64,000 nucleotides of DNA from Sphingomonas abietis (lineage in GTDB: Bacteria; Pseudomonadota; Alphaproteobacteria; Sphingomonadales; Sphingomonadaceae), in the NCBI RefSeq assembly GCF_027625475.1, contig NZ_CP115174.1:620001-684000 (forward strand). Reading direction: 5' to 3'. The notes beneath the pieces were generated by a model that made no database searches, had not been told where the DNA came from, and saw only the letters and a program-made list of their open reading frames with translations. Positions 16,493 to 27,040 of the stretch are shown piece after piece (the stretch's first letter is position 1; each line of letters starts with the position of its first letter). A program made the position numbers and the translations under genes.

Positions 16493-17473
16493 GTGTTCAA
16501 CAGGGGCGGAGGGTATCGGGGGACGTGGATCGCGTCGGCAGCTCTGCCGGTCGCGATCCTTTTCGCCGTCCCGGTGACGGCCGCGCCGGCGGAACAGAGC
16601 CGGGCCGCCTCCACCATCGTCAACCGCGCCGAAGCCAGCTTCACGATGGGGGGCGCCGAGCAGACGGCCGGTTCGAACGACGCCACCGTGCAGGTCGCCG
16701 AGGAACTGGGCATCGGCCTCGTGGCCGCGAGCGGCACGATCGCGGTGCGCGCGGGCGTGCTGACGCCGGCCCCGTTCGTGCTGACCAATGCCGGCAACGG
16801 CCAGGAAGCCTTCGTGATCGACGGCAAGATCACCGGCTTCGTCGGCACCGTCACCGGCTTCGCGATCGATGTCGATGGCGATGGCCGCTACGATCCCTCG
16901 GTCGATACCCGGTTCGATGTCGGCGGCGCCACGCCGCAGCTGGCGCCCGGCGCCTCGCTGAAATTGCTGGCGCTGATCCAGAGCAGCGCGCCGCAGCCCG
17001 CCGGCACGCTCGACATCGCCGGCCGCGCCAGCACCGGATCGGGCCGGCCCGGCACGCTGTTCGCCGGGCAGGGCGATGGCGGCGTCGATGCCGTGGTCGG
17101 CCCGACCACCGCGGCCGCCAGCCTGTCGATCCCGCTGGCCCTCGGCGCCGACGCCGTCACCGTCACGCTCGCCAAGTCCCAGCAGGTCGTGGCGCAGGAC
17201 GGCAGCGATCGGCCGACCCACGGCGCGACCATCACCTACACGATCGACGCGCAGATCGCCGGCGCCGGATCGGCGGGCGGCGCGATCGTCGCCGATCCGT
17301 TCCCCGACGGCACCGATTACATCCCCGGCAGCATGACGCTCGACGGCACTGCGCTGTCCGATGCGACCGACGGCGATGCCGGCACGATCACCGCCAGCGG
17401 CGTGCAGATCTCGCTCGGCGATGTCGTCGCGCCGGCGACCAGAATCATCGGCTTCAAGGTGAAGATCCGATGA
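16493..17473 (+). CDS. secreted protein with DUF11-like domains, first gene of surface operon
   Basis: 326 residues from a GTG with AGGGG about nine bases upstream. A Sec signal peptide (about 1-30, ending VPVTAAPA) is followed by a beta-rich N-terminal module with TIVNRAEASF (41-50) and a GG..QTAGSN motif (53-62). A DVDGDGRYDPSVD loop (126-138) resembles a Ca2+-binding DxDxDG site. A C-terminal DUF11-like module (about 222-326) has the pattern HGATITYTIDAQ followed by DPFPDGTDYIPGSMTLDG. DUF11 domains are extracellular Ig-like folds in surface proteins. No enzyme motif is visible. The stop overlaps the possible first ATG of the next gene (ATGA). The same N-terminal module recurs in the genes at 18021 and 19228. 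Confidence 0.75.
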   Translation: MFNRGGGYRGTWIASAALPVAILFAVPVTAAPAEQSRAASTIVNRAEASFTMGGAEQTAGSNDATVQVAEELGIGLVAASGTIAVRAGVLTPAPFVLTNAGNGQEAFVIDGKITGFVGTVTGFAIDVDGDGRYDPSVDTRFDVGGATPQLAPGASLKLLALIQSSAPQPAGTLDIAGRASTGSGRPGTLFAGQGDGGVDAVVGPTTAAASLSIPLALGADAVTVTLAKSQQVVAQDGSDRPTHGATITYTIDAQIAGAGSAGGAIVADPFPDGTDYIPGSMTLDGTALSDATDGDAGTITASGVQISLGDVVAPATRIIGFKVKIR

Positions 17474-17508
17474 CCATTCCCACCACTGCCAAGACGAGGA
17501 GGAAGACC

Positions 17509-17979
17509 ATGATGCTTCGATACGGACTATGCGCGGCGATCGCCGTGGCCACCGCTTTGCCCGCCTTCGCGGCGCCGGTGGAACTCGTGACCAAGGTGCT
17601 GGCCGAACAGCGCACCGCGGCCAAGGACGGCACCACCCAGATCGCGCTGACGCCGGCCGCCCGCGTCACGCCGGGCGATCGGATCGTCTACGAGATCAGC
17701 TATCGCAACACCGGCAGCCAGCCGATCGGCAATTTCGTCGTTTCCAATCCCCTGCCGAAGGATGTCGCCTACATGGCGCCCGCGGCGGGCTCCCCCGCGC
17801 CGGATCTCTCGGTGGATGGTTCCACCTTCGGTCCCCTCGCCACGCTTCGGGTCAAGGGCCCGAAGGGTGATCTCCGCCCTGCCATCGCCACCGACGTCAA
17901 AGCCGTCCGCTGGCGCCTGGCCGAGCCTCTCGCAGCGGGTGGCTCCGGCCAGTTCGCGTTCCGCGCCATGCTGAAGTGA
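17509..17979 (+). CDS. small secreted DUF11-domain protein
   Basis: 156 residues from ATG 17509, preceded by GAGGAGGAA. An in-frame ATG at 17470 overlaps the upstream stop and would add 13 residues before the signal peptide. The strong ribosome site decides for 17509 (or the ATG three bases on). The signal peptide reads MMLRYGLCAAIAVATALPAFA. The mature part is a single DUF11-type fold: VTPGDRIVYEISYRNTGSQP, then NPLPKDVAYMAPAAG and a closing FAFRAMLK strand. It is the smallest member of the five-gene operon and may be a soluble periplasmic or surface-shell subunit. The role is not known. Confidence 0.78.
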   Translation: MMLRYGLCAAIAVATALPAFAAPVELVTKVLAEQRTAAKDGTTQIALTPAARVTPGDRIVYEISYRNTGSQPIGNFVVSNPLPKDVAYMAPAAGSPAPDLSVDGSTFGPLATLRVKGPKGDLRPAIATDVKAVRWRLAEPLAAGGSGQFAFRAMLK

Positions 17980-18020
17980 AGTCCACATTCCACATCTGGA
18001 AGTAAACAGGGGTAATCGTC

Positions 18021-19151
18021 ATGTATAACCGCAGATTCAAGAGCATATTGCTCTCGGGATTATCCGCTTCGGCGGCGATCCTGATGGGCAGCGCGGGCCA
18101 CGCGCAGACGACGAGCGCAACCGGCACCGCCGCCGGTACGATCGTCAACAACACGGCCAGCGTCTCCTACTCGGTCGGCGGCACGCCGCAGACCGCGCAG
18201 TCCAACACCGCGACGTTCGTGGTCGATAAGAAGGTCAACCTGACCGTCGCCGAACTGGGTGGCACCGACACCCAGACCGCACTCGGCGCGACGGACCAGG
18301 TGACCACCTTCACCGTCACCAACCTGACCAACGCGATCCAGGATTTCCGCCTCACCGCGGATCAGCAGAGCGTGTCGATCCCGATCCTGGGCGTCGACAA
18401 TTTCGATGTCACCAATGTCCGGATCTTCGTCGATTCCAACGGCAACGGCGTCTATGACGCGGGCGTCGACACCCGCTCCTATATCGACGAACTGGCCCCC
18501 GACGCGACCGCGACCGTGTTCATCGTCGCCGACGTGCCGAACGCGCCGGGCGAGAATGTCGCGATCGTGTCGCTGAACGCCATCGCGGCGGCCGGCGGGA
18601 CGAGCGGCTCGCTGGGATCGGATCTCGTCGCCACCTCGACGCTGACGCCGGATTCGCCGACCACCGTCGATATCGTGTTCGCCGACGGCGGCGGCATCGG
18701 CGATCTGCCGCGCAACGGCCAGGCCCGCGCGTTCGACGCCTACCAGATCTCGACCGCGGCGGTCACCATGACCAAATCGGCCGTCGTGATCTCCGATCCC
18801 TATGATCTCGCGGTCAATCCCAAGGCGATTCCGGGCGCGACGATCCGTTACTGCATGATCGTCAGCAATGCCGGCCCGGGCGCCGCGACCGCGGTGAACG
18901 TCACCGACTCGCTGCCGGCCAACGTCACCTTCGTCTCGGGCTCGCTGAATGTCGGCGGCACCGGTGCCGGCGGCGTCTGCGGTGCGGGCGGCACCCAGGA
19001 GGATGACGACGCGGTCGGGCCGGACGAGAGCGATCCGAATGGCGGCTCGTTCGACGGCACGACGGTGCGGGCAATGCTGCCGCTGCTGGCGGCGCCGGTG
19101 CTCGGCATCCCCGTTCCGCTCGCCGTGACCTTCCTCGCGACGATCAACTAA
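18021..19151 (+). CDS. secreted protein with SN-module, Ca-loop and DUF11 domain
   Basis: 376 residues. The signal peptide (1-28) ends GSAGHAQ. An N-terminal module GTIVNNTASVSYSVGGTPQT (39-58) continues to SNTATFVV and is clearly paralogous to the module of the operon's first protein. The loop DSNGNGVYDAGVD (138-150) matches that protein's DVDGDGRYDPSVD. A C-terminal DUF11 domain (about 250-320) contains VVISDP, then PKAIPGATIRYCMIVSNAGP and TDSLPANVTFVSGSL. A GAGGVCGAGGTQEDDD stretch follows, with a second Cys after the one in YCMIV. No membrane anchor or LPXTG-like signal is visible; how it is held at the surface is unknown. Confidence 0.78.
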   Translation: MYNRRFKSILLSGLSASAAILMGSAGHAQTTSATGTAAGTIVNNTASVSYSVGGTPQTAQSNTATFVVDKKVNLTVAELGGTDTQTALGATDQVTTFTVTNLTNAIQDFRLTADQQSVSIPILGVDNFDVTNVRIFVDSNGNGVYDAGVDTRSYIDELAPDATATVFIVADVPNAPGENVAIVSLNAIAAAGGTSGSLGSDLVATSTLTPDSPTTVDIVFADGGGIGDLPRNGQARAFDAYQISTAAVTMTKSAVVISDPYDLAVNPKAIPGATIRYCMIVSNAGPGAATAVNVTDSLPANVTFVSGSLNVGGTGAGGVCGAGGTQEDDDAVGPDESDPNGGSFDGTTVRAMLPLLAAPVLGIPVPLAVTFLATIN

Positions 19152-19227
19152 AAGCCAGTCTTTTCAGGCTTTTCGTTCCACCAAACCGGCACGCGTCGCC
19201 AAGGCGCGTGCCGGCAAGGGACCCTGT

Positions 19228-22200
19228 ATGTCCGATTTCCGGAAGATTTTCCGCCGTGCTTCGCTCGGCCTGGGCCTCGCCACCGCCGCCGTCCCCGTGA
19301 CGACGGCGCTGTCGGCGCCTGTCAGCAATACCGCGAGCATCCATTACACGATCAACGGCCTCGACCGGACGGTGAGCTCCAACACCGTCTCGACCGAGGA
19401 TGTGATCGCCAAGCGGCCGACGACGCTGAGTTTCCGTCAGCTTCCAGACGGTTACAAACTGCACGACATGAAGTGCGACACCTCGCCGACGATCATGTTC
19501 ACGCCGTCACCGGTGAACGTGGCCGAACTCGCGGCGTCCGCACCGCTCGAGTCATTTGACGTCTTCAACCCGGAAATCATCGTCATCGACAGCCAGGGCG
19601 GCAATCACGATCCGCTGGTCCGCGAGACGGTGACGATCACCGCCGATTTCGACGGGCACAGCCACCCGGTTCCGCTGCTGGAGACCGGCCCCGATACCGG
19701 CGTGTTCGCCGGCGCCTTCCCCGGCATCGGTTCGCCGGTGGACGACGCGCTCAAGGCCTGCGATCCGTCCGGCGAGCTGAGCCGCAACGGCACCGTCAAG
19801 ATCAGCTTCACCGAAGACGAATATAGCTATGGCTCCACCGCCACGCTGCTGATCGATCCGACCGGCTACACCTTCGATTCCCGCACCGGCACGGTGATCG
19901 ACGGTGCCACCGTCTCGATCGTCAACGATGCGACCGGCCAGCCGGCGGCCGTGATCGGCGAGGACGGCAAGAGCGTCTATCCCTCCACCGTCATCTCCGG
20001 CCAGACCGCGACCGACTCCAGCGGTCACGTCTATCCGGCCAGCCCCGGCAAATATCGCTTCCCGCTCCTGGCCCCCGGCCGATATCATCTGGTGATCACG
20101 CCACCGGGCCAATATACGGTGCCGTCCACCGCCTCGCCCACCGCGATCGCCAAGCTGCCCAACACGGTCGGCGGCTATATCATCAGCGATGCGTCCTACG
20201 AGAAGCCGTTCGATCTGACGGATCCCGCGCCGCTCGAAGTCGACGTGCCGATGGATGCCGCCCGCGACGGGCAGTTGCTGCTCGAGAAGACCGCGTCGCT
20301 GGATGTCGCGTCACCGGGCGATTTCGTCCAGTATCGCCTCAATATCACCAACAAGAGCAGCGCGGACGCGAGCGGCGTCACGATCACCGATACGCTGCCG
20401 ATCGGGCTGCGCTATCGCGCCGGATCGACGCGCGGCGTCTCGGGCAACAGCGTGTCGAGCGCCGTCACCCAGCCCGATGTCTCGGGGGACGGCCGCCGGC
20501 TGACCTTCACGGTGCCGACGCTGGCCGCCGGTGCCTCCACCCAGCTCAGCTATGTCGTCGCGATCGCGCCCGGTGCGCCGGTCGGCGAGGCGATCAACCA
20601 CGCCGTCGCGGCGGGCGCCTCGATCACCAGCAACGATGCCAGCGCCTCGGTGCGCATCCGTCCGCTGCTGTTCACCGATGCGCTGACCATCATCGGCCGC
20701 GTCACCGAAGGCGATTGCGGCTCGCCCGAGCGCGGCCGCAAGGGCGTGCCCGGAATCCGCCTGCTGATGGAGGACGGCACCATCGTCGTCACCGATCGCG
20801 ACGGCCTCTACCATTTCGAGGGCGCCAAGCCCGGCACCCATGTCGTTCAGATCGATACCAATTCCGTCTCCCGCGCATTCGCGCCGGTGGCTTGCGACCT
20901 CGATAGCCGCCAGGCCCGCAGCCCGATCTCGCGCTTCGTGGAAGGTGGCGGCGGCAGCCTCCAGCGCGTCGATTTCCAGCTCCGCCGCACCGGCGCCGAG
21001 AGCGAGGCGAACAGCGCGCTGCCGATCGACGTCGCCAGCGACGGCGATGCCGCCGGCAACCGCGAGGATTGGCTGGCGATCGCGACGCCGGGCGTCGACT
21101 GGATGTTCCCGCTGGCCGATCACAATCCGCGCGCGCCGGCGCTGCGCGTCGTCATCAAGCATCTGCCGGGGCAGCGCGTGGCGCTCACCGTCAACGGCGC
21201 CCCGGTCGATCCGCTGTCCTTCGACGGCACCGACAGCGACGACAAGCGTGGCGTCGCCGTCTCGCGCTGGACCGGCCTGCCGATGCAGGACCGCGACAAT
21301 GTGCTGGAAGCCCGCGTGCTCGATGCCTCGGGCAGGCTGGTGACCACGCTGACCCGCACCGTCCATTATGCCAATGCCGCCGCGCATGTCAGCTATGTTC
21401 CTGAAAAGTCGAAGCTTGTTGCCGATGGCCTGACCCGCCCGCTGATCGCGGTGCGCGTCACCGATCGCGACGGCAAGCCGGTTCGCGCCGGCACGATCAT
21501 CCCGTTCCGGGTCGATCAGCCCTACACCGCCGCGCAGGAAGTCGCCGCCCAGCAGGGCCGCCAGCTCGCCGGCCTCGATCGTGCCGCCGCGACCGCGCGC
21601 GTGGTCGGCGACGACGGTCTCGCCTTCGTCGCGCTCGAGCCGACCATGCAGGCCGGCGAAGTGCATGTCGTGGTCAGCCTGCGCGATGGCGACAAGGAAA
21701 CGAACACCGATTTCAAGGCGTGGCTCGCCGCGATGCAGAAGGATTGGGTCGTCGTCGGCTTCGGCAAGGGCACCGCCGGCTATTCGATGCTCAAGAAGCA
21801 CTCCGAATCCGTGCCCGGCGGTCGGCATGATGTCACCACCGATGGCCAGCTCGCTTTCTATGCCAAGGGCCGGATCAAGGGCTCCTGGCTGATCACCATC
21901 GCCTATGACTCGGCCAAGACGCGCGATCTCGATCGCGGCCTGCTCGGCCAGATCGATCCCGATCGCTACTACACCGTCTATGGCGACGGCACCCAGCAGA
22001 GCTACGACGCCTCGACCTCGCGCAAGCTCTATCTCCGCCTGGAACGCCGCGATTTCTACGCGCTGTTCGGCGATTTCGAGACCGGCATGACCGAGACCAA
22101 GCTCGCCCGCTACAGCCGCACGCTGAACGGCGTGAAGGCGCAATATCAGGGCAATCACCTGATGTTCACCGCCTTTGCCGCCAATGACGACCAGCTCTAC

Positions 22201-24255
22201 GGGCGCGACGAGATCCGCGGCAACGGCCTGTCCGGCCCCTATCGTCTCTCGGCCAGCGGCATCGTCGTCAACAGCGACCAGGTGACGATCGAGACGCGCG
22301 ATCGCTTCCGCTCCGAGAAGATCGTCGACAGCAAGCAGATGACCCGCCACATCGATTACGACATCGATCCGGATGCCGGCACGCTGCGCTTCCGCGAGCC
22401 GATCCTCAGCCGCGACACCGATCTCAACCCGATCTACATCGTGGTCGACTACGAAACCTACGGCCGCAGCCGCAAGCTTGCCGCCGGTGGCCGCGCCGCG
22501 GTCAAGCTGTTCCACGGCCGGGTCGAGGCGGGCGCCAGCGTGCTGCGCGACGAGACGCTGAGCAAGGCGACGGTCGCCGGCGTCGATCTCAAGATCCATG
22601 TCGACAGCAAGACCGAGATCCGCGCCGAGGGTGCCACCGGCGGGCGTGACGGGCTGGGCAACGGCAAGGCCTATCTCGCCGAGTTCGAGCATCATGACAG
22701 CCGGATCGACATGCTCGCTTATTCCCAGCAGCAGGATGAGGATTTCGGCCTGGGCCAGCAGAATTTCGGCGAGGCCGGCACCAGCAAGAGCGGCATCGAC
22801 GGCCGGCTGCGCATCACCGAGAAGCTGAATTTCGTCGGATCGGGCTGGTATCAGCGCGATCTGGACGGATCGGCGAAGCGGTTCGCGCTCGACACCAAGC
22901 TCGAATATCGCCGGAAGACCGGCACCGTCTTCGCCGGCGCGCAGATCGCCTCCGATCGCACGATCGGCGATGCCAAGCGGGATTCGCGCCTGCTCACCTT
23001 CGGCGGCAGCCAGAATTTCTTCAACAACAAGGTGGTCGTCACCGGCCAGACCCAGATCGCGATCGGTGGCATGGACAGCAGCGTCGATTTCCCGGTGCGC
23101 CACCAGGTCGATGTCGCATGGCGCATCACCAAGGGCATCCGCCTGATCGGCACCGAGGAGATTGCCGAGGGCGATAAATATAAGGCGCACAGCACCCGCA
23201 TCGGCTTCGATGTCGCACCGTGGACGGGCGCGCGCCTGCTCAGCACGCTGAACCAGCAAGCGATCGGTGAAAACGGCCCGCGCACCTTCGCGCAATATGG
23301 GCTCAGCCAATCGCTGCCGCTCGGCCATGGCTGGTCGGTCGATGGCACCGTGGATGCGAGCAGCACGGTGAAGGGCACGATCGCGCCGACCGACCTGGTC
23401 AACCCCTTCCAGCCGGTCTCCTCGGGCACCACCATCTCGGGCACCGACCAGGAGGATGGAGACTATAAGGCGATCACCGGCGGCCTGACCTATCGTTCGG
23501 AGGCATGGTCCTGGAACGGCCGCGCCGAATATCGCCTCTCGGATCTGTCGAAGCGCTGGGGCTTCACCTCCAACATGCTGCGCACGCTGGGGCAGGGCAA
23601 GACGCTGGCATCGAGCGTGCGCATCTACAAGGTGAAGGAGGATGACGGCGGCAAGGTCTCCTTCGCCAGCGCCGATCTCGCCTTCGCGATGCGGCCACTC
23701 GACAGCCGCTGGTCCCTTCTCGAGCGGCTGGAGCTGCGCCATGAGGGGGCCAATGGTTCGGCGACCAGCAACAATGCGCTGGCGGTGCCCACCTTCGCGC
23801 AGGGCGACGATACCACCACGCGCATCATCAACAACATCGCGGTCAATTATCGCACGGGGGCCGAGGGAGACGGCCACGGGCTGGAGGTAAGCCTCTATTA
23901 TGGCGCCAAATATGTCCGCGGGCGCTATTCGGACGATGTCTATCAGGGCTTCATCGATGTGATCGGCTTGGAGATCCGCAAGGATGTCGGTACGCATTTC
24001 GATGTCGGCGTGGCGGGCAGCGTGCAACATGCCTGGACGGACAAGGCGGTGTCCTTCTCGGCCGGCCCCTCGATCGGCGTGTCGCCGGGCCGCAACATGT
24101 GGATCACCGCCGGCTACAACGTCACCGGCTATCGCGATCATGATTATCAGGATGCGCGCTACACGCGGCAGGGGCCTTATGTCACCATGCGGTTGAAGTT
24201 CGATCAGCTCTCGCTCGGCGATGCCGGGCGGGCGCTCCGGGGGGCGGTGCGATGA
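19228..24255 (+). CDS. giant outer-membrane surface protein: Ig-like/DUF11/SdrB-like modules plus C-terminal beta-barrel
   Basis: 1675 residues. A signal peptide (about 1-30) leads into a short copy of the operon's SN module (NTASIHYTINGLDRTVSSN, 34-52). About 80-210 is a beta domain with LETGPDTGVFAGAFPGI (151-167). Residues 210-300 look like a prealbumin or SdrB-type fold ending in PGRYHLVITPPG. A DUF11 domain spans about 348-475 (SPGDFVQYRLNITNKS), and a second SdrB/CNA-B-like domain about 485-590 (GVPGIRLLMEDG, DRDGLYHFEGAKPG). A further sandwich precedes a Big_1-like domain at about 725-825. From about 870 onward the sequence alternates like a long outer-membrane barrel (RKLYLRLERRDFYALFGDFE) up to YVTMRLKFDQLSL near the C-terminus. 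No TonB plug is seen. The stop overlaps the next ATG. Confidence 0.78.
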   Translation: MSDFRKIFRRASLGLGLATAAVPVTTALSAPVSNTASIHYTINGLDRTVSSNTVSTEDVIAKRPTTLSFRQLPDGYKLHDMKCDTSPTIMFTPSPVNVAELAASAPLESFDVFNPEIIVIDSQGGNHDPLVRETVTITADFDGHSHPVPLLETGPDTGVFAGAFPGIGSPVDDALKACDPSGELSRNGTVKISFTEDEYSYGSTATLLIDPTGYTFDSRTGTVIDGATVSIVNDATGQPAAVIGEDGKSVYPSTVISGQTATDSSGHVYPASPGKYRFPLLAPGRYHLVITPPGQYTVPSTASPTAIAKLPNTVGGYIISDASYEKPFDLTDPAPLEVDVPMDAARDGQLLLEKTASLDVASPGDFVQYRLNITNKSSADASGVTITDTLPIGLRYRAGSTRGVSGNSVSSAVTQPDVSGDGRRLTFTVPTLAAGASTQLSYVVAIAPGAPVGEAINHAVAAGASITSNDASASVRIRPLLFTDALTIIGRVTEGDCGSPERGRKGVPGIRLLMEDGTIVVTDRDGLYHFEGAKPGTHVVQIDTNSVSRAFAPVACDLDSRQARSPISRFVEGGGGSLQRVDFQLRRTGAESEANSALPIDVASDGDAAGNREDWLAIATPGVDWMFPLADHNPRAPALRVVIKHLPGQRVALTVNGAPVDPLSFDGTDSDDKRGVAVSRWTGLPMQDRDNVLEARVLDASGRLVTTLTRTVHYANAAAHVSYVPEKSKLVADGLTRPLIAVRVTDRDGKPVRAGTIIPFRVDQPYTAAQEVAAQQGRQLAGLDRAAATARVVGDDGLAFVALEPTMQAGEVHVVVSLRDGDKETNTDFKAWLAAMQKDWVVVGFGKGTAGYSMLKKHSESVPGGRHDVTTDGQLAFYAKGRIKGSWLITIAYDSAKTRDLDRGLLGQIDPDRYYTVYGDGTQQSYDASTSRKLYLRLERRDFYALFGDFETGMTETKLARYSRTLNGVKAQYQGNHLMFTAFAANDDQLYGRDEIRGNGLSGPYRLSASGIVVNSDQVTIETRDRFRSEKIVDSKQMTRHIDYDIDPDAGTLRFREPILSRDTDLNPIYIVVDYETYGRSRKLAAGGRAAVKLFHGRVEAGASVLRDETLSKATVAGVDLKIHVDSKTEIRAEGATGGRDGLGNGKAYLAEFEHHDSRIDMLAYSQQQDEDFGLGQQNFGEAGTSKSGIDGRLRITEKLNFVGSGWYQRDLDGSAKRFALDTKLEYRRKTGTVFAGAQIASDRTIGDAKRDSRLLTFGGSQNFFNNKVVVTGQTQIAIGGMDSSVDFPVRHQVDVAWRITKGIRLIGTEEIAEGDKYKAHSTRIGFDVAPWTGARLLSTLNQQAIGENGPRTFAQYGLSQSLPLGHGWSVDGTVDASSTVKGTIAPTDLVNPFQPVSSGTTISGTDQEDGDYKAITGGLTYRSEAWSWNGRAEYRLSDLSKRWGFTSNMLRTLGQGKTLASSVRIYKVKEDDGGKVSFASADLAFAMRPLDSRWSLLERLELRHEGANGSATSNNALAVPTFAQGDDTTTRIINNIAVNYRTGAEGDGHGLEVSLYYGAKYVRGRYSDDVYQGFIDVIGLEIRKDVGTHFDVGVAGSVQHAWTDKAVSFSAGPSIGVSPGRNMWITAGYNVTGYRDHDYQDARYTRQGPYVTMRLKFDQLSLGDAGRALRGAVR

Positions 24256-24794
24256 GCAACCTGCGTGTCTTCATCCTGCTGGGCGGCGCGCTGCTGGCGA
24301 TGCTGGTTCCGGCGGCAGGCCGGGCGGCCAACCCGCTGACCGTGGTCAAGACGATGACGGTGGTGTCCGATCCGCTCAACGAGACGCTGCCCAAGGCGAT
24401 TCCCGGCGCGCTGCTCGATTATACCGACACCATCACCAATCCCACCGGCGGCGCGAGCAACGTCACCGGCATCGCCTTTGCCGATGCGATCCCGGCCAAG
24501 ACCAAGCTGATCGTCACCGATCTCAACGGATCGGGCAGCGGGCCGGTGGTGTTCAGCGACGGCGGCCTGATCCTCGGTCTGCTCGGCAGCAACCTGACGT
24601 ACAGCTATTCGGGGCTCGGCAGCACCACCGACAGGCTCGATTTCTCGAACGATAACGGCGCCCACTGGGATTATGTGCCGGTGGCCGATGCGGATGGGGC
24701 CGATGGAGCGGTCACCAATATCCGGGTCCGGCCCTCCGGCACGCAGGCGGTGGGCAGCTATTTCCGGATCCGGTTCCGGGTGGAAGTGAGGTAG
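24252..24794 (+). CDS. secreted single-domain DUF11-like protein, last gene of the operon
   Basis: 180 residues, with the start ATG overlapping the stop of the giant barrel gene (ATGA). The signal peptide (about 1-26) ends AAGRAA. The mature protein is one DUF11-like domain: VVSDPLNETLPKAIPGALLD, then YTDTITNPTGG and a C-terminal YFRIRFRVEVR. Its first half matches the C-terminal domain of the protein at 18021 (VV-SDP....PKAIPGA...Y.....N), so it is probably a duplicated and liberated domain. Tight coupling to the barrel gene suggests equimolar production, perhaps as a barrel plug or surface partner. That is inference. Confidence 0.76.
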   Translation: MSNLRVFILLGGALLAMLVPAAGRAANPLTVVKTMTVVSDPLNETLPKAIPGALLDYTDTITNPTGGASNVTGIAFADAIPAKTKLIVTDLNGSGSGPVVFSDGGLILGLLGSNLTYSYSGLGSTTDRLDFSNDNGAHWDYVPVADADGADGAVTNIRVRPSGTQAVGSYFRIRFRVEVR

Positions 24795-25057: not shown

Positions 25058-27040
25058 GTGCTGAAGCGTTTGGGCCTCTGGATGCGATTCTCGGATGAGC
25101 CCAACGTCGTTTTGGCTCAGTATCGGGAATTGAAGCGGCAGGTGCCGCTGCTCTACGCATTGCTGACGGTCAATGCGTGCGCGGTCGCCTATACCCATTG
25201 GTCGGTGGCGCCGGGCTGGCTGACGATCGGGCTGGACGGCTTGCTGGTCGCGGTCTGCGGCATCCGCATCCTGCGCTGGATATTCGCCGAAGGCGACGAG
25301 GCGATCTCGGTGGAAGAGGCGCGACGGCAATTGATCCGCACCACCATCCTGGCGGGCGTGCTCGGCGTCGCCTTCGTCTGCTGGTCGCTGCTGCTCGATC
25401 GCTATGGCGGGCCGATCGAGCGCGCGCATGTCGCCCTGTTCATCGCGGTGACGGTGATCGGCTGCATCTTCTGCCTCGCCAACCTGCCGCAGGCGGCGAT
25501 GCTGGTGACGGCGGTCGTCACCATCCCCTATCTCGCTTATTATCTGGTCCAGGGCAGCCCGGTGTTCACCGCGATGGCGTTCAACATCGCGCTCGTCACC
25601 GCGGTGATGATCCGCGCTTTGCTCAACAGCTTCGCCGGCTTCGGCACGCTGATCCGATCGAAGGACCGGCTGGCCGCCAAGCAGGCGGAGGCCGAGCGGC
25701 TCGGCGCCGAAAATGCCCGGCTGGCGCACACCGATGCGCTCACCGGCCTGCCCAATCGCCGCCATTTCTTCGCCGAGTTCGATCGCCTGCTCGCCGATGC
25801 GCGGCGGCAGGGCCGGCAGATCGCGGTCGGCGTGCTCGATCTCGATCGCTTCAAGCCGGTCAACGACACCTATGGCCATGTGCTGGGCGACCGGCTGCTG
25901 ATGGAGGTCGGCCAGCGGCTGGCGGAGGCGTCCAGCGATACGATGCTGCTGGCCCGGCTCGGCGGCGACGAGTTCGGCATCCTGCTCACCGCCGATATCG
26001 ACCAGACCTGCGCGATCGGCCAGGCGGTGTGCGACCGGCTGTCGCGCGCCTTCCTGATCGACGAGCAGCGCATCCAGCTCGGCTGTTCGGCGGGCTTCGC
26101 GATCTTCCCGCAGGCCGGCGAGACCGTCCACGAGCTGTTCGATCGTTCCGATTATGCGCTCTACCACGTCAAATCGACCGATCGCGGCCGCTGTGCCTTG
26201 TTCTCGCACGAGCATGAGACGCTGATCCGATCCGAGCGCGCGGTCGAATCCGCGCTCCAGACCGCCGATCTCGAATCCGAGCTGCACGTCCGCTTCCAGC
26301 CGATCCTCTGCACCCACAGCGGCACGGTGTTCGGGGTCGAAGCGCTCGGCCGCTGGACCAGTGCCACGATCGGCCATGTCAGCCCGGAACGCTTCATCAC
26401 CACCGCCGAGCGAATCGGCGTGATCCATGCGATTACGCTCATCCTGTTCCGCAAGGCGCTGCGCGATTTCGCGCGGATGCCCGAGACGATCGGCCTGTCC
26501 TTCAATCTCTCCGCGCACGACATCGTCTCGCCCAACACCATCTCGATCCTGATCCGCATGGTGGAGAGCGCCGGCATCGACCCCAAGCGGATCACCTTCG
26601 AGCTGACCGAGACCGCGCTGCTGCGCGATTTCGATGCGGCGGTGCGCGGCATCCGGGCGCTGCGGGCGCTCGGGATGCGGATCGCGCTCGACGATTTCGG
26701 CAGCGGCTATTCGAGCCTCGGCTATCTGCGCCGGCTGCCGCTCGACAAGGTCAAGGTCGATCGCAGCTTCATCGCCGACATGGACGAGGCCTCGGGCCGC
26801 AACATCATCACCGCCATCCTCGGCCTGTGCCAGACGCTGGAGCTCGATTGCATCGTCGAGGGCGTCGAGACCGAGGCGCAGCTGCGATCCTTGCGCGATC
26901 TCGGCTATCGCATGGCGCAGGGCTATCTGTTCGCGCGGCCGATGGACCTCGGCGAATTCCTCGCCTGGATGCGCCGCCAGCCGGTCAGCACGCCCGATAT
27001 CGAGCCGAAGGCGCTGCCGACGCTGCGCGTTGTCGCCTGA
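25058..27040 (+). CDS. membrane-bound GGDEF-EAL protein (c-di-GMP turnover)
   Basis: 660 residues from GTG 25058, with AAAGGAG six bases upstream. An N-terminal part (about 30-200) has five or six membrane spans and no recognised sensor domain. A short coiled linker (about 200-222) follows. The diguanylate cyclase domain begins at HTDALTGLPNRR and keeps an intact GGDEF (302-306). The EAL domain keeps EAL (428-430), NLSA (483-486), ELTET (515-519), DDFGSGYSSL (545-554), KVKVDRSF, EGVET (601-605) and QGYLFARP. Both catalytic sites therefore appear complete, and it could synthesise and degrade c-di-GMP. Typical outputs are the motile/sessile switch and surface polymers. It stands alone behind a palindrome; a role in controlling the preceding surface operon is possible but unproven. 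Confidence 0.93.
   Translation: MLKRLGLWMRFSDEPNVVLAQYRELKRQVPLLYALLTVNACAVAYTHWSVAPGWLTIGLDGLLVAVCGIRILRWIFAEGDEAISVEEARRQLIRTTILAGVLGVAFVCWSLLLDRYGGPIERAHVALFIAVTVIGCIFCLANLPQAAMLVTAVVTIPYLAYYLVQGSPVFTAMAFNIALVTAVMIRALLNSFAGFGTLIRSKDRLAAKQAEAERLGAENARLAHTDALTGLPNRRHFFAEFDRLLADARRQGRQIAVGVLDLDRFKPVNDTYGHVLGDRLLMEVGQRLAEASSDTMLLARLGGDEFGILLTADIDQTCAIGQAVCDRLSRAFLIDEQRIQLGCSAGFAIFPQAGETVHELFDRSDYALYHVKSTDRGRCALFSHEHETLIRSERAVESALQTADLESELHVRFQPILCTHSGTVFGVEALGRWTSATIGHVSPERFITTAERIGVIHAITLILFRKALRDFARMPETIGLSFNLSAHDIVSPNTISILIRMVESAGIDPKRITFELTETALLRDFDAAVRGIRALRALGMRIALDDFGSGYSSLGYLRRLPLDKVKVDRSFIADMDEASGRNIITAILGLCQTLELDCIVEGVETEAQLRSLRDLGYRMAQGYLFARPMDLGEFLAWMRRQPVSTPDIEPKALPTLRVVA

Follow-up and report, generated by a model that had tools for sequence, protein, structure and literature searches.

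A five-gene operon of Sphingomonas abietis that may encode a covalent surface fiber assembled by strand exchange between split DUF11 domains

In this study, we have analyzed a 64,000-nucleotide stretch of the Sphingomonas abietis genome (GCF_027625475.1, contig NZ_CP115174.1, positions 620,001-684,000 of the forward strand), referred to here as the window, whose numbering is used throughout; the subject is a group of five genes at 16493-24794, designated A to E, that appear to encode the parts of a surface fiber. The list of open reading frames (ORFs) and their translations places all five on the + strand, as the first-pass annotation of this DNA had described. That annotation had also counted two or three stop-start overlaps; two are present (A-B and D-E, both ATGA), and the third is not, B and C being separated by 41 nucleotides and C and D by 76. 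The signal peptides of A to E were assigned by eye only. In the list that follows, a donor is an N-terminal segment resembling the last strand of a DUF11 domain, and an acceptor is a C-terminal DUF11-type domain that lacks this strand.

16493..17473, + strand: gene A, GTG start, 326 amino acids (aa); putative secreted link subunit with an N-terminal donor and a C-terminal acceptor DUF11 domain
16604..16690, + strand: putative donor segment of A, residues 38-66, AASTIVNRAEASFTMGG...SND; Asn44 is codon 16622-16624
17144..17470, + strand: putative acceptor domain of A, residues 218-326, without the last strand; Lys228 at 17174-17176, Asp268 at 17294-17296
17470..17979, + strand: gene B, 169 aa from the overlapping ATG, later ATGs being possible; acceptor-only, DUF11-like, lacking the residues of the isopeptide bond; may act as a cap or as a chaperone-like partner for donor strands
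18021..19151, + strand: gene C, 376 aa; putative second link subunit, donor and acceptor
18120..18227, + strand: putative donor segment of C, residues 34-69, TGTAAGTIVNNTASVSYSVGG...SNTATFVVD; Asn44 at 18150-18152
18747..19148, + strand: putative acceptor domain of C, residues 243-376; Lys252 at 18774-18776, Asp296 at 18906-18908
19228..24255, + strand: gene D, 1675 aa; putative donor-only base with an N-terminal donor, beta domains, a complete DUF11 domain, SdrD_B, and a C-terminal predicted outer-membrane barrel
19315..19395, + strand: putative donor segment of D, residues 30-56, APVSNTASIHYTINGL...SSNTV; Asn34 at 19327-19329; weak profile fit
20275..20661, + strand: complete DUF11 domain within D, an internal control; Lys354, Asp388, and Asn457; Pfam score 44.2 bits, profile positions 2-99
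21745..24252, + strand: predicted barrel region of D, residues about 840-1675; 43 amphipathic strand-like segments by a crude count, without a solved relative
24252..24794, + strand: gene E, 180 aa; acceptor-only subunit carrying Lys33 and Asp78; candidate for the covalent tip

The DUF11 assignment differs in strength from gene to gene. A search of the organism's own genome with the PF01345 profile gave three matches at E ≤ 0.001, which lie in A, C, and D. C and D pass the Pfam DUF11 cut-off, A and B exceed the cut-off of NCBIfam TIGR01451 only, and E falls just below the latter (21.9 versus 24 bits) and has no Pfam DUF11 match. Beside its complete DUF11 domain, D has further matches to CarboxypepD_reg and SdrD_B (Pfam and NCBIfam). 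In Pfam and NCBIfam, none of the five products matched a characterized secretion or pilus family, and a profile search of the Protein Data Bank (PDB) gave no relative for the barrel; the first-pass annotation had likewise seen no secretion ATPase and no known pilus or adhesin gene in the group. A search of PHROGs with B, C, and E gave no match.

The evidence that carries our interpretation is the way in which the small DUF11-type domains end. The Pfam DUF11 profile has 114 positions, and the match to it goes no further than position 68-69 for A and C and position 51 for B. The C-terminal domains of A, B, C, and E all end after the penultimate strand, and the alignments place this end in an identical column in 264/264 proteins (76 A, 79 B, 80 C, and 29 E, window included), with no residue past the last column of the window protein and with the last six columns free of gaps. 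The end column of D, unlike those of A, B, C, and E, is variable. At the other end of the chain, the mature forms of A, C, and D open with a segment that reads I-x-N-T-A-x-x-x-Y ... S-N-T-V. Written as a regular expression, this donor segment matches 75/76 A, 67/80 C, and 78/80 D proteins, the unmatched A and the two unmatched D being truncated copies. In the acceptor-only families, it matches one of 79 B and 6 of 29 E proteins; the E matches lie at a median position of 52, and we take them to be mid-protein false hits. Judged by sequence, the last (G) strand that is missing from the acceptors is located at the mature N-termini of A, C, and D.

When donor and acceptor sequences are joined, the interrupted profile match is extended. 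For the window proteins and the Pfam profile, placing the C donor behind A raised the score from 23.2 to 27.9 bits and the matched span from 10-69 to 10-111, and placing the A donor behind B raised it from 20.0 to 26.0 bits and from 10-51 to 10-112. C with a donor gained 3.9 bits, versus -1.6 with a decoy, its best span staying at 10-69. The test was repeated across loci with a general DUF11 profile, seeded with the internal domain of D and built on 88 domains that occur in proteins from 13 other loci; a donor from the same locus was placed behind each acceptor, with shuffled donors and decoy segments as controls. Alone, the acceptors almost never reach the last-strand position (A 0/76, B 0/79, C 2/80, E 1/28); with the C donor of their locus, nearly all do (A 76/76, B 78/79, C 80/80, E 27/28). 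The median gain with C donors is 10.1 (A), 9.1 (B), 9.9 (C), and 6.5 (E) bits, compared with 4.7, 4.8, 6.2, and 2.5 bits for shuffled C donors and 0.3, 0.6, 1.2, and -0.5 bits for decoy segments. On A, the native C donor gains more than its shuffle in 70 of 76 pairs. A donors resemble C donors in this test (gains of 4.8-8.7 bits). The general profile separates donors clearly from shuffles only when they are joined to acceptors.

A second line of evidence comes from the residues that would form an isopeptide bond. DUF11 has been renamed CLIPPER, and a domain solved as PDB 9IFR is described with an isopeptide bond between Lys715 and Asn806, Asp748 being the presumed catalyst (PMC12617251). The bond thus welds a Lys of the first strand to an Asn of the last. 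In the 9IFR chain, the Asp of the DTLG motif lies 34 residues after the Lys, versus 33 by the published numbers 715 and 748, and the distance to the Asn, 91, agrees; we used the Asp of the DTL motif. Just two columns, an Asp and the Asn of the last strand, are nearly invariant among 31 tandem DUF11 domains taken from other genomes.

In A and C, this triad is split between the two ends of the chain, and it is invariant. The acceptor Lys and Asp are each present in 76/76 A and 80/80 C proteins, and, with truncated copies excluded, the donor Asn is present in 75/75 A (one of 76 truncated), 80/80 C, and 78/78 D (two of 80 truncated), at pairwise identities that reach a minimum of 0.28 for both A and C and of 0.38 for D. 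Conservation of this degree is rare: of the mature columns, 18 of 297 are so conserved for A and 23 of 348 for C, in each case with all three triad positions included. In E, the Lys is found in 28/29 proteins (Arg in the other), and the acid is Asp in 22/29 and Glu in 7/29. The complete DUF11 domain of D has Lys, Asp, and Asn in one chain, each in 78/78 of the proteins that reach the position. B covers the same span in the same operon, and yet its Lys site is K in 18/79 proteins, its Asp site is D in 1/79, and both together are found in 0/79. B illustrates such sites under relaxed constraint. In joined constructs, the donor Asn is no more than two columns away from the profile Asn in 80/80 cases for C on C and in 61/75 for A on A.

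The operon itself is conserved. GTDB genomes were scanned by pattern and the hits confirmed by tblastn; the comparison uses the best 80 of the 177 D loci obtained. A, B, C, and D lie in order on one strand in 74 of these 80; of the other six, three (L028, L063, and L082) are at contig ends and three (L044, L045, and L094) have no detectable A. B is present in 78/80 loci (79 with the window), and an E homologue of at least 80 bits follows D in 28/80. The hosts are mainly Sphingomonas, together with Sphingobium, Novosphingobium, Sphingopyxis, and others, including two Asticcacaulis. Apart from A, C, D, and frames antisense to D, no cluster of ORFs of at least 180 codons, a length that most B genes do not reach, occurs in more than 24/80 loci. 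Since the flanks vary while A-B-C-D stay together, the operon moves as a unit. The first-pass annotation had staked its reading beforehand on such conservation, and the four genes were indeed found together across Sphingomonadales and in the two Asticcacaulis.

The spread is patchy. D was matched in 12 of 60 genomes, own genome included, and in one of nine other genomes of the genus; for C, the matches extend to 91 of 298 genomes and 42 of 96 genera of the family, the own genome again included. When genomes were drawn evenly from the class, 11 of 385, own included, matched a profile of D residues 476-1675, 7 of the other 10 over part of the profile only. In a protein database search with D residues 480-1675, 1376 proteins matched at E ≤ 0.001 (7984 scored). 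This number and the shared A-B-C-D order in 74/80 loci exceed what chance would give. We also observed C in two tandem copies at one locus (L073, 5692-7898), as expected for variant shaft subunits, and neighboring C-like matches in several genomes of the same family, among the matches listed. In Sphingomonas sp. H160509 (L059, 7857-12919), the D gene is split into two main frames, by sequencing error or decay.

The C-terminal region of D suggests a barrel of several tens of strands, a crude script having found 43 amphipathic strand-like segments there. A PDB profile search with the last ~830 residues matched no solved barrel, the best hit (E 0.013) covering a short stretch that precedes the barrel; the barrel is thus a prediction. 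In six other loci (L139, L140, L141, L144, L148, and L151), a protein of 740-3728 aa holds the D-like DUF11-SdrD_B part in its second half, and the next gene encodes the barrel-like part; in L144, the two D-like parts match over 255-619 of 740 residues. The long protein of L139 (4247-13667) has CshA_NR2, GEVED, DUF11, and OmpA matches, with OmpA near its end, and a separate D-like barrel gene directly after it. This is the architecture given for the adhesin from which 9IFR was cut (PMC12617251). The main text of that paper on the similar Acinetobacter adhesin nowhere uses the word "barrel". Because fiber part and barrel are separate genes in these loci, D looks like a fusion of a fiber base and a barrel.

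We postulate that A to E encode a head-to-tail surface fiber in which a DUF11 (CLIPPER) isopeptide domain is split and is completed by donor-strand complementation, and consider this proposal reasonably probable as a whole. Of its parts, a fiber built by donor-strand exchange is likely, and we lean towards its being covalent. From their signal-peptide-like N-termini, A to E would be exported by the Sec pathway. As the sequences show, D, A, and C each offer at the mature N-terminus a free last strand with the Asn, a strand that is missing from the C-terminal domains of A, C, E, and B. A donor strand may fill the groove of the next subunit and so complete its immunoglobulin-like (Ig) fold; with its Asn next to the Lys and Asp of the acceptor, an isopeptide bond would form spontaneously, a natural tag/catcher reaction to which the invariant triad and the chemistry of 9IFR point. 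The chain would begin at D, with its barrel in the outer membrane. D would donate to A or C, and A and C could donate to each other or to themselves along the fiber. The acceptor-only end would be E or an unlinked adhesin-like tip, held covalently, or B, held reversibly; alternatively, B may act like a chaperone and shield donor strands in the periplasm before assembly. It is the distribution of donors, acceptors, and triads that would make D a donor-only base, A and C links, E a covalent tip, and B a non-reacting cap or chaperone. The first-pass suggestion that the barrel displays or exports small DUF11 subunits as a fiber gains the split donor and acceptor ends and the invariant triad in its favor and is partly supported: the split, its conservation, and the triad are seen in the sequences, and polymerization, the inter-chain bond, the barrel, and the location of the proteins are inferred.

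Several observations weigh against this proposal. In none of the aligned constructs does the acceptor Lys fall in the Lys column of the model, because the acceptors carry an insertion after strand A, and the Lys was assigned by invariance and context rather than by gapless alignment. The D donors are weak: they gain 1.3-4.4 bits, versus 0.3-2.9 for their shuffles, which the native donor beats only in 42/74 (A), 53/77 (B), 48/78 (C), and 16/28 (E) pairs, and their Asn lies within two columns of the profile Asn in only 20/74 constructs on A and 22/78 on C. Shuffled C donors often reach the last-strand position too (59/76 on A); the gain seen with shuffled donors is an effect of composition. Unjoined donors barely exceed their shuffles (medians of 3.9 versus 3.1 bits for A, 8.1 versus 5.9 for C, and 2.6 versus 1.6 for D), and a profile made from the internal domain of D alone did not separate donors from shuffles. 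The general profile, moreover, was seeded with this same domain and includes L142 and L149, which are discussed below, and the sequences compared are related, so that the counts are not independent. E has no Pfam DUF11 match either alone or with the D donor joined to it. Finally, the model leaves unexplained the route of A, B, C, and E across the outer membrane.

Proteins beyond the operon repeat the same arrangement of ends. In nine regions of other genomes of the family (L164-L172), away from the operon, ten proteins of 652-714 aa with the same acceptor end were found among the matches listed. Lys and Asp are present, by eye, in all ten, and the donor expression matches only one of them, within a signal-peptide-like stretch. 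Two stand in tandem in L164, and a P_proprotein domain (Pfam) is present in two of the five checked. These unlinked proteins look like alternative tips. At L047, L057, L058, and L070, longer, two-domain E-like proteins are encoded downstream of D. In the three that were checked, an SCPU-type domain at the N-terminus is joined to a DUF11-type acceptor; it scores above the Pfam cut-off in L058 (16686-17756) and L070 (13663-14694) and below it in L047 (13552-14664). SCPU is the pilin domain of archaic chaperone-usher pili. Some of the genomes without a linked E hold further acceptor-like matches: a search of 27 genomes with the C acceptor gave matches away from the operon in eight (G835, G843, G844, G847, and G855-G858); it missed known E-like proteins and so was not exhaustive. 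Two distant relatives show the same grammar. L149 encodes a B-like protein of 167 aa that has no donor, a chain of 966 aa that begins with a donor and ends with an acceptor, and a donor-first D-like protein of 1962 aa; L142 has a 953-aa chain of this kind and a 2205-aa D-like protein, also donor-first. Both chains are multidomain, with several hundred residues of Ig-like domains between the donor-like N-terminus and the acceptor-like C-terminus. Elsewhere in the family, DUF11 matches lie within an open frame of 11302 codons (L097/L121, G189:C1 near 2196778).

Four other readings have to be weighed. The first changes only how the fiber would be assembled: B would be a periplasmic chaperone, and D would be an usher-like channel that passes the growing fiber out. 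This variant is compatible with the fiber proposed here, so that the two overlap in probability, and we regard it as possible yet doubtful. It would account for B being an acceptor without reactive residues in 78/80 loci, and it is consistent with the separate D-like barrel gene found beside a long DUF11 protein in other proteobacteria, as in L139 with its OmpA domain near the end. However, no usher profile matches D in Pfam or NCBIfam or its barrel profile in the PDB search. Autotransporter or two-partner barrel profiles gave no match in D (Pfam and NCBIfam).

Strand exchange could also take place without any isopeptide bond between the subunits. The lack of a triad in B and the Glu at the Asp site in 7/29 E proteins would fit such a noncovalent fiber, which we nevertheless find improbable: the three residues of the triad do not vary in A and C, in spite of their division between the two chain ends, and B shows how such sites look once constraint is relaxed. 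Also improbable is self-closure, in which A and C insert their own N-terminal strand into their own C-terminal domain and give closed monomers, released or held on D, with no polymer. Isopeptide domains assembled from distant segments within one chain are described in PMC12617251, whose table gives residues 137-211 plus 587-717 for GBS104 (3TXA) and which reports large domains inserted between the bonded residues in RrgA and Spy0125. Against self-closure, D is a donor whose own DUF11 domain is complete, and E, B, and the unlinked proteins are acceptors without a donor, so some pairing must be between chains. Furthermore, 51 of 74 A-C-D loci have no linked E of at least 80 bits; outside the four of these with an E-like protein further downstream, A and C are the only reactive acceptors that the operon offers to the invariant Asn of D. 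In L142 and L149, the chain ends that would have to meet are several hundred residues of Ig-like domains apart. The remaining reading makes D an outer-membrane adhesin that stands alone and treats A, B, C, and E as independent matrix or shell proteins with a fold in common; it draws on the occurrence of DUF11 and SdrD_B domains in ordinary fibrillar adhesins (PMC12617251) and is very improbable, as it explains neither why four families end at the same strand nor why the missing strand stands at three N-termini of the operon.

The grammar of the proposed fiber is familiar. Chaperone-usher pili (type 1, P, and archaic) have an acceptor-only tip, links that are both donor and acceptor, a donor-only end, and an outer-membrane barrel; A to E would share this grammar and polarity. 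They differ from these pili in that no chaperone or usher profile matches them, in that the donor is predicted to weld covalently, and in that the base would be the barrel protein itself. A PapD-like chaperone had no Pfam or NCBIfam match among A to E, the flanking genes and the rest of the genome not having been scanned for one. An Ig domain without its last strand and a matching strand at the N-terminus of another subunit are both present by sequence, with weak donors in D. In terms of DUF11/CLIPPER membership, A, B, C, and D match a family profile and E does not; the triad is whole in D, split in A and C, and missing from B.

Other filaments share single features with A to E. The archaeal thread Saci_0406 is described as a head-to-tail donor-strand filament with no recognizable chaperone-usher genes and with an isopeptide bond between molecules that was read from its map (PMC9715654), which shows that usher-less donor-strand filaments exist and can carry a bond between subunits, though at another place. 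In that thread, the N-terminal amino group is bonded to Asn57 two subunits along, whereas the A-E bond would join the Lys and Asn of a split domain between direct neighbors. Its host is archaeal and without an outer membrane, and Saci_0406 is described with an N-terminal Asp and a YYY motif and as having no Pfam domain (PMC9715654). The CLIPPER (DUF11) fibrillar adhesin B9T28_05395 has the same domain and the same Lys/Asp/Asn triad; there, however, the domain is whole and the bond lies within one long chain (PMC12617251). SpyTag/SpyCatcher and other split CnaB pairs likewise consist of a short strand and a catcher that react by themselves (PMC5487036), but these are engineered CnaB halves, and A to E would, if the model is true, be a natural CnaA-like split that serves polymerization. 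The grappling hooks GhpA, a match in the PDB search, and GhlA are surface filaments with DUF11-type domains formed by giant chains (6,596 aa and 49 DUF11 domains in GhlA; PMC13319060) instead of short exchangeable subunits, and the longest chain here, D, has 1675 aa and one DUF11 stretch. Gram-positive sortase pili are also covalent (PMC7835359), a Lys side chain being bonded between subunits; the A-E bond would form without an enzyme, and no sortase or LPXTG-type sorting signal was matched among A to E in Pfam or NCBIfam.

A literature search, which covered open-license papers, returned no description of a split DUF11 fiber, and we file A to E as a putative donor-strand fiber variant outside any named system. 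Whether they would amount to an enzyme-free, natural tag/catcher covalent pilus of Gram-negative bacteria, with a large non-usher barrel as its base, the chemically dead paralogue B in the role of chaperone or removable cap, and interchangeable tips that attach through the same acceptor, we regard as evenly balanced.

Upstream of the operon, the ORFs read as a putative LysR-type regulator, malate synthase G, and a D-2-hydroxyacid dehydrogenase. Directly downstream, at 25058-27040, lies a gene for a putative GGDEF-EAL type protein; an operon link to it was dropped, as matches occur in the fetched flanks of only 11/80 loci and at varying positions. Two other candidate assignments were also dropped: cargo of a type 11 secretion system, no DUF560 match being found among A to E, and F-ENA, with no DUF4183 match among them.

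The literature draws a contrast between filaments that are assembled noncovalently and the sortase-linked covalent pili of Gram-positive bacteria (PMC7835359). If true, a self-welding donor-strand fiber would break this division. In a widespread group of bacteria, DUF11 proteins and a large, unclassified barrel would acquire a shared function; the fiber would also be a source of natural tag/catcher pairs and would represent a new way for such bacteria to build a covalent fiber without a sortase.

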